A stretch of 64,000 nt of DNA, taken from the NCBI GenBank assembly GCA_015039465.1, contig MU130549.1, forward strand, positions 245,930 to 309,929, in the 5' to 3' direction. Below, piece after piece: positions 50,636-61,920 of the stretch (positions are counted from its first letter, which is position 1; each line of letters opens with the position of its first letter). The stretch is from Phlegmacium glaucopus. Lineage: Eukaryota > Basidiomycota > Agaricomycetes > Agaricales > Cortinariaceae. Under the pieces are notes generated by a model. It was given only the letters and a program-made list of their open reading frames with translations. It was not told the DNA's origin and searched no databases. The position numbers and the translations under genes are program-made.

Positions 50636-53600
50636 ATGATTGTACTGCTAGTGACCGTTCTCTTCTGTTTCTCTCTAGCTCTAGCTCAACAACAACTAGC
50701 TCTTGTACACACTGCCTCGTCAACACCTGATATCTCCACAATAAATGACTATAACCTCCTCGACATCATCCTCGTAGCTTCAGTAGACGGTAAATTCCAT
50801 GCCCTCAACAGGACGTCTGGTGCTACTCTCTGGTCAATGGCCTCTTTCGCCACTACTACAAGTGTTTCCGCCCCTTCCTCACTCGCACCGCTCGTCCGCA
50901 CCCAACATGTAGACTATAACCCAGAGTCGGACTACGAAGATGATACACCACAAGAAACCTACATCATTGAACCTCAATCAGGGGATATATATGTCATGAC
51001 AACTCCTTCAAGTCCTTTACAACGATTCCCATTCTCCATGGCAGAATTAGTCGACATATCCCCCTTGACAAATGAACATGAACATCAGACGAGGTACTTT
51101 GTGGGAAGGAAAGAAACCTCTCTGATATTAATGGAATTGGAGACTGGGAAAATAAAAGCTACACTCAATTCGGAATGTCCTTTTATCCCAGACGACACCG
51201 AGGAGTCCCAGGATGTGGACCTTGACGAACTGGAGGGAAGTAAACCACCTATATCAGCTCCTACAGAAATCTATATAGGACGTACAGGTATTTCCATCTC
51301 TCTTTCCTCACACCTTACTCTTTTTTATCTTAGTATTATTCCCAAGACTACCATATATCAATACGCAAGAAACCTACCCCGAGTGTACCGAATCCTCCCA
51401 TACACAATCTCACCTTCTCAACATATGGCCCTAACAACAGGGACAATCACCTACAAACACTTTATCGCAAGACTAACGACAATTCCTATGTACAGAGTCT
51501 ACCCAACGGAGAACTCATCGCATTTCGGGGTAGGACCCCAGCTGCGGACCAAGGAAAAATCAAAGAAAAAGACGGGCCAGACTCTCTCCTCTGGGGACAG
51601 CACTTCAACGCACCAATGTAAAATATTACACTTTTTTTCTCCTCTTCTCTCCAACTTTTAACGTTCTGTTATTTTCAGTGTAGCCATCTTTGACATCCTC
51701 CAAGCCCCACCTACAATCAACACTCCAAACCCACACCCTTTCATCCTCCTCCAACCCCGTCCCCGCCTCCCCGACCTCTTCCCTTCCCGATCTCTCTCCC
51801 GCCACCACCTACCCAATCTAGAAGCTGCCTATGTAGGAGTCGTAGAAGAAACAGGGAGTTTATTCGCTATGAGTCCTGAAAGCTTTCCATTGGTTGTGTT
51901 TGGTGGGAATGAATATAAAGACAAAACGACAAAGACAAGGGATAAGAAGTCCTTACCGGCTGGTGAAGGCAAGGAGGACGAATCTCCCGAAGATGTCATT
52001 AATCCCCATGAATCGACATGCATGCTAAACCCCTACGATATTCGTTGTATCGTAGGAGTTAGGCGAGTTGAAAATGGGGGTGGGCCAGAAGAGAGGTTGA
52101 AGAGTTTGTTAGATGGACCACCTCTTCCACGAGGACCTCTGAATGGTTCCGCAGCACCGATCTCCGCTGTACCTGTCGGTCGTACACCAGGAGACGATAA
52201 TGACGATAAGCGGTGGCACAACGAGAACACCAGCAACAGAGTACAAGATATCATAGCCATCTCTGACGGCCGTGCAAATATCCTACCTCAACTAAACAAA
52301 TTGGAAACTCTTCTCTCAACTATCCTGTTTGCTGTTTTCTCGGCGTGGTTTTTATGGAAACGGGTTGGGATGAAAGTGAATTTGGCTGGAGAGAAAGAAA
52401 GGAAAAGAACAACTGTAGAGGAGGAAGAGGAGCAAGATCGTCATCCCATTGGACATATGGAACGTGATCAGGAGAACACGTCGATAAATGGCACGGCATC
52501 ATCACCATCATCACCTTTTGAGAACACCTTGTTGGACAATGAAACCGGAGTGCATCCAGCGATGTCAACTCCACCACCCGTACTTATGAATGGACATGCT
52601 GACCCCATAAATGATCTTACGAATACCCCAACAACAATACCACCAACGCCGAGTCCTAATCTCAAACGTGAATTCTCCATCTCTCTCCCGTCCAACCTAG
52701 ATCCTCTACCAATCTCACAAACACCCATACCTCTTCTTCCTCAAACACCTCTACCTTCCACGCCCACCACCGCTACTCCAGGGGTAATAGATGACAACGA
52801 AGACAGTGAGGCAGAAGTTGAACCTGAAAACGGGGCAGGTGCAATTACTACGCCTGGTAAACGGAAAGCAAGGAGGGGGAAGAGGGGGAAGAAGAAGAGG
52901 CCTGGCGTTCTAGGTGGGGAAGAGGTTGGTAGTGGCGGGAGTGGTGGCGATAAAGCAGAGAAAGATAGAGATGCAGATGGAGGAGAGAAGGCTTCGTCGT
53001 TGATATTGACAACTTCGTCGCCGAAACCTCTTGCAACGCCTATACCTTCACTGACAGTATCAGATACGATTCTAGGTACGTTTACCTCTTCCTTTCCTCA
53101 ACTTTTTCAAACAAAAAAAAACTCATTAAATTTGCAGGCTACGGTTCACACGGCACAGTCGTGTACCAAGGTTCATTCCAAGGCCGAGCCGTAGCCGTCA
53201 AACGTCTCCTCCAAGATTTCGTAACCCTAGCCACTCGCGAAGTATCCATCCTTCAACAATCTGATGATCATCCTAATGTGATCAGGTATTACTATCAAGA
53301 ATCGCATCTCAACTTTTTTTATATCGCACTTGAATTGTGTCCTGCTTCGTTGGCTGATATTGTCGAGAACCCGTACGGTCATGGCAATGGGATTGGAAGT
53401 TTGGGTGGGAATAGGAGAGAAGAGGAGTGGAGAGAGATTGTAAAGGGGTTTGATGCGAAGAGGGCGATGAGGCAGGTAGCGAGTGGGTTGAGGCATTTAC
53501 ATGGCCTTGGGTTGATTCATCGAGATATCAAACCCCAAAATATTCTGATTTCTTCTGCTTCCTCTTTAACCGGGGGACGAGATGGATCAGGGTACAGGAT

Positions 53601-54579
53601 GCTCATATCCGATTTTGGTCTATGTAAGAAACTAGACGTGGACCAAACTAGTTTCTTACCTACCGCGAATGGTGCAATGGCAGCTGGGACAGTAGGTTGG
53701 CGAGCTCCCGAGATTTTACGTGGGGAAGTCAAGCTTGATGAACTTTCGAATGGTGACGATTCCATATCTTCTCGAGGGAGTGTAGCTACCGTCAACGGCA
53801 CTTCCTCCACACCCACTGGCACAACAACCACAAAAACTCGGCTAACAAAAAGTGTCGACATCTTCGCCTTAGGTTGCCTCTTCTACTACACCCTCACAAA
53901 TGGTGGACACCCATACGGCGACCGTTTCGAACGCGAAGGCAACATCTTCAAAGACAACAAACAACTCTCTCTCCTCCCCCACTTTTGTTCAACAGAAGAA
54001 TCAACAGAAGCCCAACATCTCATAACCCAAATGCTCGATCCCCAACCATCGCAACGACCCGATACCAAAACATGTCTTCTTCATCCATTTTTCTGGGATC
54101 CAGCTAAACGGTTAGGGTTTTTACAAGATGCTTCGGATAGGTTCGAAGTTATGTGTAGAGATCCGAAGGATGGAGCTTTGATTAAGTTGGAGAAGGATGC
54201 TGGGAATGTTGTTGGGAATGATTGGCATCAGAGGTTGGATAAGATTTTTATTGAGAATTTGGGAAAGTATAGGAAGTATGATGGGAGATCTGTACAAGAT
54301 TTGATGAGGGCTTTGAGAAATAAAGTACGTCTTTTTTTTCTTCGTTTGTCCCTGGATGTTCTTATTGATCCTTTTTTTTCCGCCTCTATCTAGAAACATC
54401 ATTATCAAGATCTTCCGGAAAATGTTAAACGACATCTAGGTCCAATGCCAGAAGGTTTCCTTGGGTATTTCACACGTCGATATCCGAAATTGTTCATGCA
54501 TGTGCATGGAGTGGTTAAGGATACTGGGTTGCATGGCGAGTCGATGTTTAGGACGTATTTTGAACTGCCGGAATCATAA
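50636..54579 (+). CDS. ire1: IRE1 ER-stress sensor kinase/endoribonuclease
   Basis: Unfolded-protein-response sensor in the ER membrane. Exons 50636-51287, 51347-51617, 51679-53075, 53138-54324 and 54394-54579 sum to 3693 nt (1230 aa). The ATG at 50636 gives a clear signal peptide (VLLVTVLFCFSLALA). The luminal beta-propeller follows (LLDIILVASVDGKFHALNR, IYIGRTDYHISIRKK). A transmembrane helix lies near 515-535 (LLSTILFAVFSAWFLWKR), then a ~200-aa disordered linker. Kinase from ~773: LGYGSHGTVVY, VAVKRLL, HRDIKPQN (~900), SDFGLCK (~932), GTVGWRAPE. The KEN RNase ends the protein, with RALRNKKHHYQDLP holding the R-N and His residues used in cleavage. Its natural mRNA target (HAC1/XBP1-like) is not in the window. 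Confidence 0.96.
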
Positions 54580-56638: not shown

Positions 56639-58647
56639 TATGGCAACAGAACCTGGACTGCCCTGTTTTTGATCAGCGAACACCGTTAGCCGACCGAACT
56701 TAGTCACCGGTGTGCCGGATTACTAATTTGGTAATATATATCTGTGACATTGAAATTTCGGGAATGGATTTCTAATAACTTTCCTGCTCCTCGACGTTGC
56801 CTCAAGTGATTTTGGAGATATTTAGAAGCAATATGTGTTAATAAAAAGTTAAAATGAGTTCCCAATATGGACAATGCTGTTTTTAATTTGTTTTTAATGA
56901 AGTTGTGGCAGGTCACATCATGTCACATGTGGCAAAATTCTAATGTCAATCAAGTATCTCGGGATCCGCTAAGCCTACGATGACGATTTTTGGTGCGTTA
57001 GAATTGCATTGAGGAGTAGATGTGTTCCCCACCTTAAAATATATGGTTTGGTCAAGTTTTGGTAGAAATTGAAAATGAGGATCTTGAGAATGCTAAGCAT
57101 GAACTCCTGAGACAATGACATGGTAAAAAAAATCATTCTCTTGGAAAGCAGTTCTAATGTATACAAATGAGTGAACCCCATCAGAAAATTGGTAAAATTT
57201 GGTGTTGTGCAAGTAAAATTTGAAGATGCTGGCCCATGACTCAAGTTAATGATAATCCACCCACTGGCAGGTTCACCCAGTTGTAGCTTGCTGTAATTCT
57301 AAGTGTTTAGGCATAAAATAAGTTTATATTAATATCTGTACCTAGGCACAAAAATTCCTAGATGGCATACAAGTAAACTTCAATGTTTGTAAGTAGTAAG
57401 TACTAAGAAATAAGCAATAGTACTTTACCTCATTTTGGTAGGCAAATGACTGAGGTCTACAGTGAACAAGTGTACCTTTGTATTCTGAACTCCATAGACC
57501 ACTTACATCTGAATTGGATATCACAAGCTGATCACAAGTGACAAGACTCATGCACCCATCATTTTAAACCATTTCTCCTGCTGCCTCACCATAATAATTT
57601 ATCATGGTGATTTTATTACTCTAATACTATGTCATATCTTACTCATTCCTCTATGCCCTAGCTGAGAGCTGTCATTTTGTTCTACTAGTACTTGTCAAGT
57701 TGTACCACTGTTGTAATTTAGTTCATTTCTTACTTTTGCATATATAGTATTTCACTGTGACATTTCTCTTCAGTTGTTTGCTTTTATCACTTGCAAACAT
57801 TGAGTGAGCTTAAATCCTTACATATTTCATTTGCTTACCATGTATTTGAAGCTTTGTTATCATGATATCTCTTTCAGGTAAATTTGAATAAATTCATTTG
57901 CTTTATCACTCACAGACACTGAGTTTTATTATATTTCCCAAGATATTTCAAGCTAAACTAAAAGTAAGGCAATAAGAATACTGAAGGTGCAAAGCTTGGC
58001 ACATTATGCATGTTTGGAAGTTGGTGTAGCTACAGTACAGCAGGTAAATAGTAACAGCACCTTCAAATTTTGCTTGCACAACACCAAATTTTACCAATTT
58101 TCTGATGGGGTTCACTCATTTGTATACATTAGAACTGCTTTCCAAGAGAATGATTTTTTTTACCATGTCATTGTCTCAGGAGTTCATGCTTAGCATTCTC
58201 AAGATCCTCATTTTCAATTTCTACCAAAACTTGACCAAACCATATATTTTAAGGTGGGGAACACATCTACTCCTCAATGCGATTCTAACGCACCAAAAAT
58301 CGTCATCGTAGGCTTAGCGGATCCCGAGATACTTGATTGACATTAGAATTTTGCCACATGTGACATGATGTGACCTGCCACAACTTCATTAAAAACAAAT
58401 TAAAAACAGCATTGTCCATATTGGGAACTCATTTTAACTTTTTATTAACACATATTGCTTCTAAATATCTCCAAAATCACTTGAGGCAACGTCGAGGAGC
58501 AGGAAAGTTATTAGAAATCCATTCCCGAAATTTCAATGTCACAGATATATATTACCAAATTAGTAATCCGGCACACCGGTGACTAAGTTCGGTCGGCTAA
58601 CGGTGTTCGCTGATCAAAAACAGGGCAGTCCAGGTTCTGTTGCCATA
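56639..58647. mobile_element. 2-kb element with ~590-bp terminal inverted repeats
   Basis: Arms 56639-57229 and 58057-58647 are near-perfect reverse complements (single mismatches such as CAATGCAATT/CAATGCGATT). Ends read TATGGCAACAG...CTGTTGCCATA and are flanked by GTTATT on both sides (56633-56638, 58648-58653). The 827-bp centre has no meaningful ORF; ORFs within the arms appear twice, mirrored, and are by-products of the repeat. High arm identity implies recent insertion or gene conversion. Superfamily not determined. Confidence 0.88.
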
Positions 58648-58653
58648 GTTATT

Positions 58654-59623
58654 TGGAGTTCACGAAGGAGATTGCAAATTTGGGGAAAAGAAGTAGACTT
58701 TGGGTCAGATGGAGTCTGCGTTCAGGTACACAAAGAATTAATAAACTGATGTACCCGCAAAATCACAAAAACCATAACCTTTGGATTTACCTGTGTCCCT
58801 GTCAAATACTAGCCTGAAGGTTGAGTGGCATCAGGAATTTAACCAAGGTATAGTAGTCAGGATGAATCTAAGAGTATACATAAATCCTATGACTTGTCCA
58901 ACTGACTTGGACTTGAAGAACAACATCAATGAGCTGGTCCTTCGCAGGGCACATTACCGACTGGCGCACTGTATAAAACCCAATTCTGCTGACATTGAAA
59001 GACCTTGCGCACCAAATAGTACTTTTGACATGTCTTCTGAGGTATTATAGACGCTATACTTATCAAATTCCTAAGTTCCAAGTCGCCACACTGGGCAGTG
59101 ACGGTACAGATTCATTATCATCGCATGGTTTCAGCGTCGACGCCGTCTCTGGTGGTTACTTGAGTAACTTTAAGCAATCCAAATACGACAAGCCCGAATC
59201 GATCGCTAGTGACTTGACCCAAGGAATATTCAAATCATTTACTTGGTTATTGCAACACATTTTTCATCAAATTTCCACGTGTTTGACAAAAAGGGGATAT
59301 AGTCGGCATGCGGCTACATTGTGGCTGGGGCTGGCGTCGAATTTGCACCTTGACTCCTTGAGGCATGGTTTCTCTGACACACCATCAACATCTTTTATAC
59401 ATGAATCGAAGTCAAATATGCGGTCAAAAGTGATTGGGCTATCGCCAGTGACTGTTCTTATATCTCGCGGAATTCTTCAACAACAAACACGCAAGGAAAA
59501 AAAAATGGTGTTCAAACACGACAGAACCACGAGGCCACGAGGCTAACGGGAGCCATCGCCTCATCAAGTTTATCATTACCACCTCTTGTCTCTTCATCCT
59601 TTGTGCGTCGGCAGCTAAGGGCA
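58654..59623. other. Upstream region of the zinc-finger-IRE1 gene
   Basis: Two overlapping plus ORFs (58781-59050 and 58995-59546) have no recognised domain and could be a decayed gene. The ~115-bp similarity to 55447-55565 lies at 59412-59525. The promoter of the next gene should be here. Confidence 0.4.
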
Positions 59624-61920
59624 ATGCCAGTTTCCTCCCAATGTGATTGCAGACAGTTTGCAAACAAGGAAGCTCTTCTCCAGCACATGAAGAGCTCAAG
59701 TGCATGGTACCCCTTCTGTTCAATAGGTGATCGAAGGTTTGTTAGCGAGACCGCCTTTGACGACGTGAGTGCCTTCTTTTTCTTAATGTTCTCTCAGCTC
59801 TAACTTCAGTGTTTTTTTCTTTGTAGGATATGGCGGCTAAGCATCCGCCTGCCTATGATTGCACGCTGTGCAATCAAAGTTACCATGCACTTTTCACATT
59901 GGAAGACCATTATCGTGGATCCCCAGCTCACCCAAACTGTGGACGATGTGGCAAGGGGTTCATAGATGCTCCTGCTTGTGAAGAGGTATTATTTACTGAC
60001 TCTTGCTTCTGTTTCCAATCTAAACTCTTCTGATTATCAGCACTATCGGACGGCGCATCTCTCCCCTCATACTGACTTCCACTCCTGTTTGTATCCTGGA
60101 AGTGTAGGTCACACTGCACAAACAACGGCTGTGAACAGACCTAGCTATCCACTGGGACCTCTTACTGTATTCGAGTCAGCTAAAAGGCGGAAACTTATGG
60201 AAGCCAAAGGTGAGAGGGATTCGAGAACGCTTAAAGAGGACTACTGTCAGCAACAGAAATTAATATCAACTCTGGTGGTGGGGATGCCGGTTGAAAGTGC
60301 ATATTTGCATTCTCAATTCCAGACGCACAGCTCCACAGCCTTTCCATCCTTAGCGACCGCCTCGCCTCCCGCCTTCAGTGTATTTACTCATCCCCTGGCA
60401 TCCGGCTTATCGATACCTCTGGCTACGCCTACACCTTTATTAATAACATTAGATTCAATTCTAGGTACGTTCCCGCTTCCATTCCCTTTTTTCAAAAACC
60501 CCCAAGTTCATATAACCTCCAGGGTATGGTTCCCAGGGTACAGTTGTTTTCCGAGGTTCCTTCCAAGGCCAACCCGTAGCCGTCAAACGTCTCCTCCGAG
60601 ATTTCGTCACATTAGCTACTCGCGAAATATCCATCCTCCAACAATCCGATGATCATCCTAATGTGATCAGGTATTACTACCAAGAATCACAACCGAATTT
60701 TCATTATATTGTGCTTCAGCTTTGTCCTGCTTCGTTGGCAGATATTATCGAAGTTCGGCATGGTAGTGGAGGCTTAACTTGGAGTGATAGTAGGAGAGAG
60801 GAGTGGAGAGATATAGTGCGGGAGTTTGATCCGAAGAAGGCGATGAGGCAGGTAGCGAGTGGGTTGAGGCATTTACATTGCCTTGGATTGGTTCATCGGG
60901 ATATCAAACCTCAGAATATATTGATCTCTTCTTCTGGGGGACAAGGTGGAACGGGATACAGGATGCTCATATCCGACTTTGGCCTATGCAAGAGATTAGA
61001 CGTGGATCAAACCAGTTTCCTGCCCACTACAAACGGCGCGATGGCAGCTGGTACCGTCGGTTGGCGAGCTCCAGAAATATTATGTGGGGAAACTAAGTTT
61101 GATGAACTCTTCACTGGTGAATATAACGGTACCCCCTCTCCGTCCCTTGGCACAACAACAACTCCAAGAACCCGTCTAACAAAAAGCGTCGACATATTTG
61201 CCTTAGGCTGCGTATTTTACTACATCCTAACAAACGGCAGACATCCTTACGGCGACCGTTTCGAACGCGAAGTCAACATCATCAAAGATAACAAACATTT
61301 ATCCCTTCTTTTTTCTACTAAAGAAGCGACAGAAGCACACAACCTCATAACCTCCATGTTACATCCACAACCTTCTCAACGTCCAGATATCAAAACATGT
61401 CTTCTTCATCCATTTTTCTGGGATCCCGCGAAGCGGTTAGGTTTCTTACAAGATGCTTCGGATAGGTTTGAGATTATGTGTAGAAATCCGAGGGATGCGG
61501 CCTTGATTAGCTTGGAGAAGGATGCTGGGAACATTGTTGGTCACGATTGGCATCAAAGATTGGATAAGATTGTTATTAAGAATTTGGGAAAGTATAGGAA
61601 GTATGATGGTAAATCTGTACAAGATTTGATGAGGGCTTTGAGGAATAAAGTACGTGATTTTTTTTAGTTGTCCTCACTTCTTTTTTATTCCATCTCATAA
61701 TTGACCTTGTTTTTTTGTTTTGTTTCATTTTAAGAAAAATCATTACCAAGACCTCCCAGACAATATTAAGGTGAATCTAGGTCCAATGCCGGAAGGTTTC
61801 CTTGGGTATTTCACATATCGATATCCGAAATTGTTCATGCATGTGCATGGAGTGGTTAGGGATACTGGGTTGCATGGCGAGTCGATGTTTCGGACGTATT
61901 TTGAACTGCCGGAATCATAA
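59624..61920 (+). CDS. Chimeric C2H2 zinc-finger + IRE1 kinase/RNase protein
   Basis: Five exons (59624-59764, 59827-59985, 60041-60464, 60523-61649, 61735-61920) sum to 2037 nt, an intact 678-aa frame with GT-AG introns. Residues ~1-110 hold C2H2 fingers: two intact (DCTLCNQSY...LEDHYRGSPAH; CGRCGKGF...CEEHYRTAH) and two degenerate ones before them, where Cys or His is replaced. A ~125-aa linker follows. From ~residue 230, within the same exon, the sequence becomes IRE1: LGYGSQGTVVF, VAVKRLL, HRDIKPQN (~365), SDFGLCK (~391), GTVGWRAPE, and the KEN domain with RALRNKKNHYQDLP. Luminal domain, signal peptide and membrane helix are absent, so the product should be soluble. It derives from the neighbouring IRE1. 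Differences are largely synonymous, which suggests it is functional. In KEN the first His of KKHHY is Asn; the second is kept. Confidence 0.88.

Follow-up and report, generated by a model that had tools for sequence, protein, structure and literature searches.

Analysis of a stretch of 64,000 nucleotides (the window, C193:245930-309929 of the 60.5-Mb genome of Phlegmacium (Cortinarius) glaucopus, Cortinariaceae) points to a chimeric IRE1-type gene that arose by duplication at the DNA level, and in which the front of a C2H2-RING gene has taken the place of the sequence preceding the kinase. With a probability of roughly 0.55, we propose that this chimera acts as a selected IRE1-type kinase/RNase uncoupled from the ER, or as a partner or competitor of the canonical IRE1 encoded by the first copy of the same tandem array. 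IRE1 output is usually tied to a luminal sensor, and the chimera would offer a natural test of a kinase-RNase that lacks ER input and the mRNA-docking box, and whose catalytic half has evolved under constraint.

The tandem IRE1 array and its chimeric member

A search of the whole genome with PF06479 gave 11 matches, all of them on contig C193, and protein and nucleotide comparison revealed six tandem copies of IRE1 kinase plus KEN over about 34 kb (C193:299066-332558, from window position 53137 to beyond the window end). The chimeric gene is copy 2 of the six, and copy 1 also lies inside the window (Table 1). A first-pass annotation had described the chimera as carrying a second, complete kinase and KEN RNase; both domains keep their catalytic motifs, but the copy is one of six and not of two.

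Copy 2 consists of an unbroken frame of 678 amino acids plus stop (2037 nt) over five exons on the forward strand (window 59624-61920), as first annotated. Its four introns, 55-85 nt in length, are all GT..AG, and none can be read through in the frame tested. Introns 1 and 2 are positioned as the joins of the annotated donor protein P0001, and introns 3 and 4 as those of P0013, the annotated sister encoded by copy 5; from the sequence and these relatives we infer the splicing of copy 2. Residues 1-106 form four C2H2 fingers, residues 107-223 a donor-derived linker, and the remainder the IRE1-derived kinase and KEN. The C2H2 fingers initially reported are thus present, but two of the four are degenerate, and the proposal that finger and kinase sequences share one exon agrees with a switch of source inside exon 3. 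No signal peptide or luminal sensor was found in the frame, whose N-terminus derives from the C2H2-RING gene, and no membrane helix was predicted (maximum 19-residue hydropathy of 1.39, for a threshold of 1.6), which bears out the lack of these three features noted at first reading.

Table 1. Location of copy 1 and of the parts of the chimeric copy 2 (window coordinates)
Feature	Position	Strand	Description
Copy 1, approximate span	50636..54579	+	Signal-like start, luminal part, membrane helix; kinase from 53137; KEN 54394-54576
Captured donor upstream DNA (promoter/5' UTR side)	59266..59623	+	Aligns to C171:1038610-1039041; 309 identities, 41 mismatches, 90 gap columns
Exon 1	59624..59764	+	aa 1-47: finger 1 (donor ligands C4, H29 lost), start of finger 2 (C35 lost)
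Exon 2	59827..59985	+	aa 48-100: remainder of finger 2 (H48 lost), complete finger 3, finger 4 minus its two His
Exon 3	60041..60464	+	aa 101-241: last part of finger 4; linker from the donor as far as aa 223; IRE1-derived sequence from there to the kinase
Internal deletion junction	60056..60059	+	About 1.27 kb of donor missing; CATC shared on both sides; donor pieces end at 1039493 and resume at 1040761
Fusion point	60409..60410	+	Homology to the donor stops at 60409; homology to copy 5 starts at 60409 (contig position 306338)
Exon 4	60523..61649	+	Protein kinase domain of IRE1, start of KEN RNase
Exon 5	61735..61920	+	Remaining KEN RNase including catalytic His, stop codon

Pfam analysis of the open stretch containing exon 4 identified Pkinase (3.2e-39) and Ribonuc_2-5A (5e-22), and that of the stretch containing exon 5 identified Ribonuc_2-5A (2.2e-15); the closest solved structures were those of the yeast IRE1 kinase/RNase, 2rio and 3fbv (E ~1e-110). 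Alignment to these structures revealed that copy 2 retains VAVK, HRDIKPQN, DFG, RAPE and the RNase R-N...H, as had been read from the sequence at the outset. In addition, residues K263, H366-R367-D368, D393-F394-G395, R615-N616 and H620 were invariant in 14 aligned proteins. Among 237 alignment columns in which 56 full-length IRE1s are fixed to at least 97%, copy 2 departs at 26, copy 5 at 25 and copy 1 at 8. The basic [+]-box of the fungal IRE1 linker, present in copy 1 and aligned in the full-length IRE1 P0018, is absent from copy 2, whose IRE1-derived part starts downstream of the expected place of the box. A KRRK cluster in the linker of copy 2 (from residue 148), not found at that place in the donor, could act as a nuclear signal.

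The luminal part of copy 1 was 71% identical to P0018 over 195 aa, with the linker and membrane part collinear, and a [+]-box-like sequence, GKRKARRGKRGKKK, is located at 52856-52897. Pfam accepted no domain in this luminal part, the identity of which rests on the P0018 match. On these sequence features, copy 1 is a canonical IRE1 sensor. It shares with copy 2 the kinase and KEN, two intron places in the catalytic part and the catalytic residues; on the other hand, it has a signal-like start, a luminal sensor, a membrane helix and a [+]-box, whereas copy 2 carries fingers instead.

In copies 3 and 5 the kinase and KEN parts are open. Copy 4 (C193:319989-321190) is disrupted, with a portion of its kinase missing, and copy 6 (C193:331197-332558) contains an in-frame stop within the kinase, the public model of this copy (P0125) being devoid of the sequence around that stop; the two broken copies indicate that the array has a history of decay. 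At their start, copies 3-6 carry fragments derived from the 5' end of an unrelated gene for a CitMHS-type transporter, which we first took to be of the SLC13/CitMHS type. The parent gene (C128:35861-37658) scores over the CitMHS Pfam cut-off and aligns to copies 3, 4, 5 and 6, although Pfam gave nothing over cut-off on the N-termini of the copies themselves. Pieces of the DNA upstream of the transporter are also found within the array for copies 3, 4 and 6, and the public models P0014 (copy 3), P0013 (copy 5) and P0125 (copy 6) keep membrane-helix-like segments. The array therefore combines captures from two donors side by side, a C2H2-RING front in copy 2 and transporter fronts in copies 3-6. 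Like copy 2, copies 3-6 join the IRE1 catalytic half to the 5' end of another gene; unlike it, they use a CitMHS-type donor. Within this single locus, genes have been born by capturing upstream DNA together with exons of two unrelated donors.

A tree of 15 kinase-KEN rows, from which copy 4 was left out, placed copies 2 and 5 as sisters (100/100) and grouped the five array copies with two ENA proteins (100/100). Nine of its 12 inner branches are open, so that the order of the duplications is not fixed by the tree. Since its sister copy 5 carries a transporter piece, copy 2 may have swapped its front end twice. The public protein set contains P0014, P0013 and P0125 from the array contig, and no protein identical to copy 2 among the matches listed (about 251-1186 aa); this absence is weak evidence, because copy 1 is not listed either.

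An inverted repeat of 593 bases is located upstream of copy 2 (window 56639-57231 and 58055-58647), with arms 99.5% identical and ~0.8 kb apart; it looks like a recent mobile-element insertion. After the IRE1 array, at C193:333585-347224, there is another tandem repeat of three units (2.7-3.8 kb matches, 89-90% identical), in which some open stretches appear by eye to be cytochrome P450-like.

Origin of the front end and state of the fingers

A C2H2-RING gene on contig C171 is the source of the first 1.1 kb of the copy 2 locus, a now diverged copy that comprises upstream DNA, exons 1 and 2, part of exon 3 and two introns: the alignments pair window 59266-60059 with C171:1038610-1039493, and 60056-60409 with C171:1040761-1041107. 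The donor part missing between these two pieces corresponds, by eye, to fingers 5-7 and a linker. At 60409/60410 the letters change from donor-like to copy 5-like, close to the junction suspected at first at ~60418, and the homology ends of the donor and IRE1 meet in frame inside exon 3. The fusion falls near donor residue 559, ahead of the RING, for which P0001 shows matches at about 716-755 (E 4e-4, below curated cut-offs) and P0002 a match over one cut-off; the C-terminal RING of the donor family (P0001 and relatives) is not in copy 2.

The front part of copy 2 and its donor are 76-77% identical in nucleotides (gapped alignment), and both halves of copy 2 differ from their sources (76-87% nucleotide identity). 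A genome search with the finger half matched only the copy 2 place and its donor. The presence of both donor introns led us to reject a retrogene origin of the finger part; at 76-77% identity, the donor locus was rejected likewise as having been duplicated exactly or mis-joined here. The location of both donors in the same genome, the inclusion of introns and upstream DNA, and the meeting homology ends support the formation of the chimera by DNA-level duplication.

The finger part matches the donor over residues 1-106 with 14 changes, of which four affect zinc ligands. Two ligands are missing from finger 1 and two from finger 2, whereas all eight are kept in finger 3 (C59, C62, H75 and H82) and finger 4 (C85, C88, H101 and H106), H29 and H82 having been assigned as ligands by pattern; ligand loss in fingers 1-2 vs 3-4 gave p = 0.077. 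The donor state at 12 of the 14 changed residues is common to three outgroup proteins, which indicates that those changes fell on copy 2. Ligands were changed no less often than other residues (4/16 vs 10/90, p = 0.22), and overall protection of zinc binding is thus not apparent. Pfam finger matches in copy 2 were weak and below curated cut-offs (zf-C2H2_jaz, 0.021; zf-C2H2, 0.16), and no ankyrin match was obtained on its open stretches (Pfam, E up to 1).

The first-pass annotation had suggested that nucleic-acid-binding fingers imply RNA- or DNA-guided targeting. That suggestion fares poorly in view of the two ligands missing from each of fingers 1 and 2 and of the unprotected ligands; furthermore, nothing in this analysis assigns a nucleic-acid role to the C2H2-RING donor. 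The finger data weaken the idea of guidance, and a module of two fingers is conceivable.

Divergence and selection

Over kinase and KEN, copies 2 and 5 differ by a dS of 0.31 and a dN of 0.065. When copies 1, 3 and 6 served as outgroups, and with 14 changes left unassigned, 26 silent and 26 replacement changes were placed on the copy 2 branch (omega ~0.29) and 39 silent and 31 replacement changes on the copy 5 branch (omega ~0.23). The silent excess of copy 2 over neutrality was significant for silent shares of 0.224, 0.28 and 0.33 (p = 1e-5, 6e-4 and 0.008, respectively). These substitution counts indicate that the catalytic part of copy 2 is under purifying selection on its own branch.

Simulations of neutral drift (1000 runs each, substitutions only) left the whole copy 2 frame open in 0.1% of the runs at 0.155 changes per site, 2% at 0.05 and 21% at 0.02. 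The first 241 residues stayed open in 26% of the runs at 0.05 changes per site and in 60% at 0.02; an open frame is therefore weak evidence for that part alone.

In comparison with the donor, the finger part showed a dS of 0.54, a dN of 0.064 and a pairwise omega of 0.12, and the fast-evolving linker a dS of 0.36, a dN of 0.23 and a pairwise omega of 0.64. The captured upstream DNA and introns differ from the donor by 11-20% mismatches plus gaps, the silent sites of the finger part being more diverged than this adjoining non-coding DNA. The finger part carries ~15 replacement differences vs ~48 expected if it were neutral on the copy 2 branch, a figure that assumes that half of the silent changes fall on that branch. 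It has to be noted that the constraint on copy 2 may partly predate the fusion.

Proposed role, alternatives and known relatives

The proposed sequence of events starts with amplification of the IRE1 catalytic half as a tandem array, followed by replacement of the region before the kinase of copy 2 with C2H2-RING upstream DNA, the first two exons and part of the third. The predicted product lacks the luminal oligomerisation domain, the membrane helix and the HAC1-docking [+]-box, and would be expressed from the captured donor promoter. In yeast Ire1, according to the available part of PMC4279078, the luminal domain drives clustering and the linker [+]-box docks HAC1 mRNA and is needed for splicing, although a synthetic bypass can substitute for it. 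With box, luminal domain and membrane helix missing, copy 2 is expected to be a soluble protein that does not respond to ER stress and carries out little or no HAC1-type splicing on its own. It may work as a concentration-driven IRE1-type kinase/RNase or, alternatively, act as a partner or competitor of copy 1 by pairing with it via the dimer faces of kinase and KEN. The finger part would most likely be a leftover, or a tail for protein interaction or localisation, rather than a sequence guide. The 2037-nt open frame, the omega of ~0.29 and the kept catalytic motifs support a selected kinase/RNase role. Against it stand the 26 off-consensus positions of copy 2 and the decay seen elsewhere in the array.

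It is possible, on a more tentative footing, that copy 2 is a by-product of rearrangement in the array, still intact because it is recent, hardly expressed if at all, and heading to decay like copies 4 and 6. The state of those two copies, the degenerate fingers 1 and 2, the fast linker and the lack of a matching public gene model among the matches listed are all in line with this reading, and an open frame would be expected anyway if the fusion were recent. These points have to be set against the omega of the copy 2 branch and a long frame that is still open after a dS of 0.31 from copy 5 and of 0.36-0.54 from the finger donor. We consider it unlikely that the enzyme is a finger-guided RNase, in which fingers 3 and 4 and the linker would stand in for the [+]-box by recruiting selected RNAs to KEN, as a natural counterpart of the synthetic docking bypass that works in yeast (PMC4279078, available part). 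The eight intact ligands of fingers 3 and 4 and the overall constraint on the finger part (pairwise omega and replacement deficit) would fit such a role, but half of the eight ligands of fingers 1 and 2 are lost, donor fingers 5-7 (by eye) are deleted, the Pfam matches fall below cut-offs, nucleic-acid binding by the donor is not established in this analysis, and the constraint may date from before the fusion. Similarly doubtful is the broader proposal that the array repeatedly swaps its input domain (luminal sensor, transporter half, fingers), with fingers 3 and 4 of copy 2 in place of the [+]-box delivering chosen RNAs to a soluble KEN RNase; if true, a stress-splicing enzyme would have become an RNA processor that is independent of the ER and responds to another trigger.

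Two further explanations concern the integrity of the gene itself. That the finger exons form a short separate message, with the kinase expressed alone from an internal start, is quite improbable given that the donor and IRE1 frames are continuous within exon 3 and that both flanking intron pairs agree with annotated relatives. An assembly join of two loci, a concern to which reliance on a single assembly lends some substance, is weakened in the sequence by the divergence of both halves from their sources, by the in-frame meeting of the homology ends, by the occurrence of the finger half only at copy 2 and the donor, by the comparable fusions that copies 3-6 show with a different donor, and by the lack of N in the array stretch (N appears on C193 only from 352590); we regard such a join as very improbable.

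A search with residues 1-240 of copy 2 gave 12 matches from 542 candidates, none of them listing a kinase or KEN domain; the protein search used reaches only relatives that have short words in common with the query and a length of 0.55-1.75 times its own. The closest catalytic relative was copy 5, with 84% (among the best 120 of 522 and the best 120 of 411). A conserved finger-IRE1 family in fungi was considered and not seen among the matches listed. A literature search of titles and abstract openings, with subscription journals outside its scope, found no IRE1 with fingers.

Vertebrate RNase L is a soluble protein with a kinase-like domain and KEN, and N-terminal ankyrin repeats that bind 2-5A. 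By description it resembles copy 2 as a soluble kinase-like plus KEN protein with an unrelated N-terminal module, and differs in having ankyrin repeats, whereas copy 2 combines C2H2 fingers with an intact-looking kinase. A HEPN survey table (PMC3710099, available part) lists kinase-KEN proteins with ankyrin repeats, some with CCCH fingers; by the table entry, the latter also join a zinc-finger module to kinase-KEN, of the CCCH rather than the C2H2 type. Arabidopsis IRE1C lacks the sensor domain, and sensor-less IRE1 also occurs in some other Brassicaceae (PMC6788458, available part); it is likewise a natural IRE1 paralogue without a luminal sensor, but from a plant lineage and, in that description, with no mention of a captured finger module. 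The portion of PMC4891664 at hand contains no finger fusions, and that of PMC7550596 names Cortinarius glaucopus and recent LTR insertions. The initial statement that no IRE1 of this build had been described holds in that no other such protein was found among the matches listed, and has to be narrowed in view of the CCCH/ankyrin kinase-KEN proteins and IRE1C: the C2H2 finger-IRE1 is new as a variant, seen so far in one genome, whereas kinase-KEN proteins with other N-terminal modules are already known.

Nine short IRE1-like proteins were retrieved and eight of them scanned with Pfam (P0222 left out), P0015 being the ninth protein scanned. Apart from a TCAD9 match in P0228 (0.0098, inside the kinase and below cut-off), all families found with an E of 0.01 or less were of the KEN or kinase type. 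P0228, from Dendrothele bispora (714 aa), is a short IRE1-like protein with an N-terminus free of Pfam matches at that E value. In Mycena sanguinolenta, a short IRE1-like protein (P0150, 430 aa) and an IRE1-like protein of 1147 aa (P0126) are apparently encoded on one contig, which suggests that extra IRE1 copies may occur in other mushrooms.
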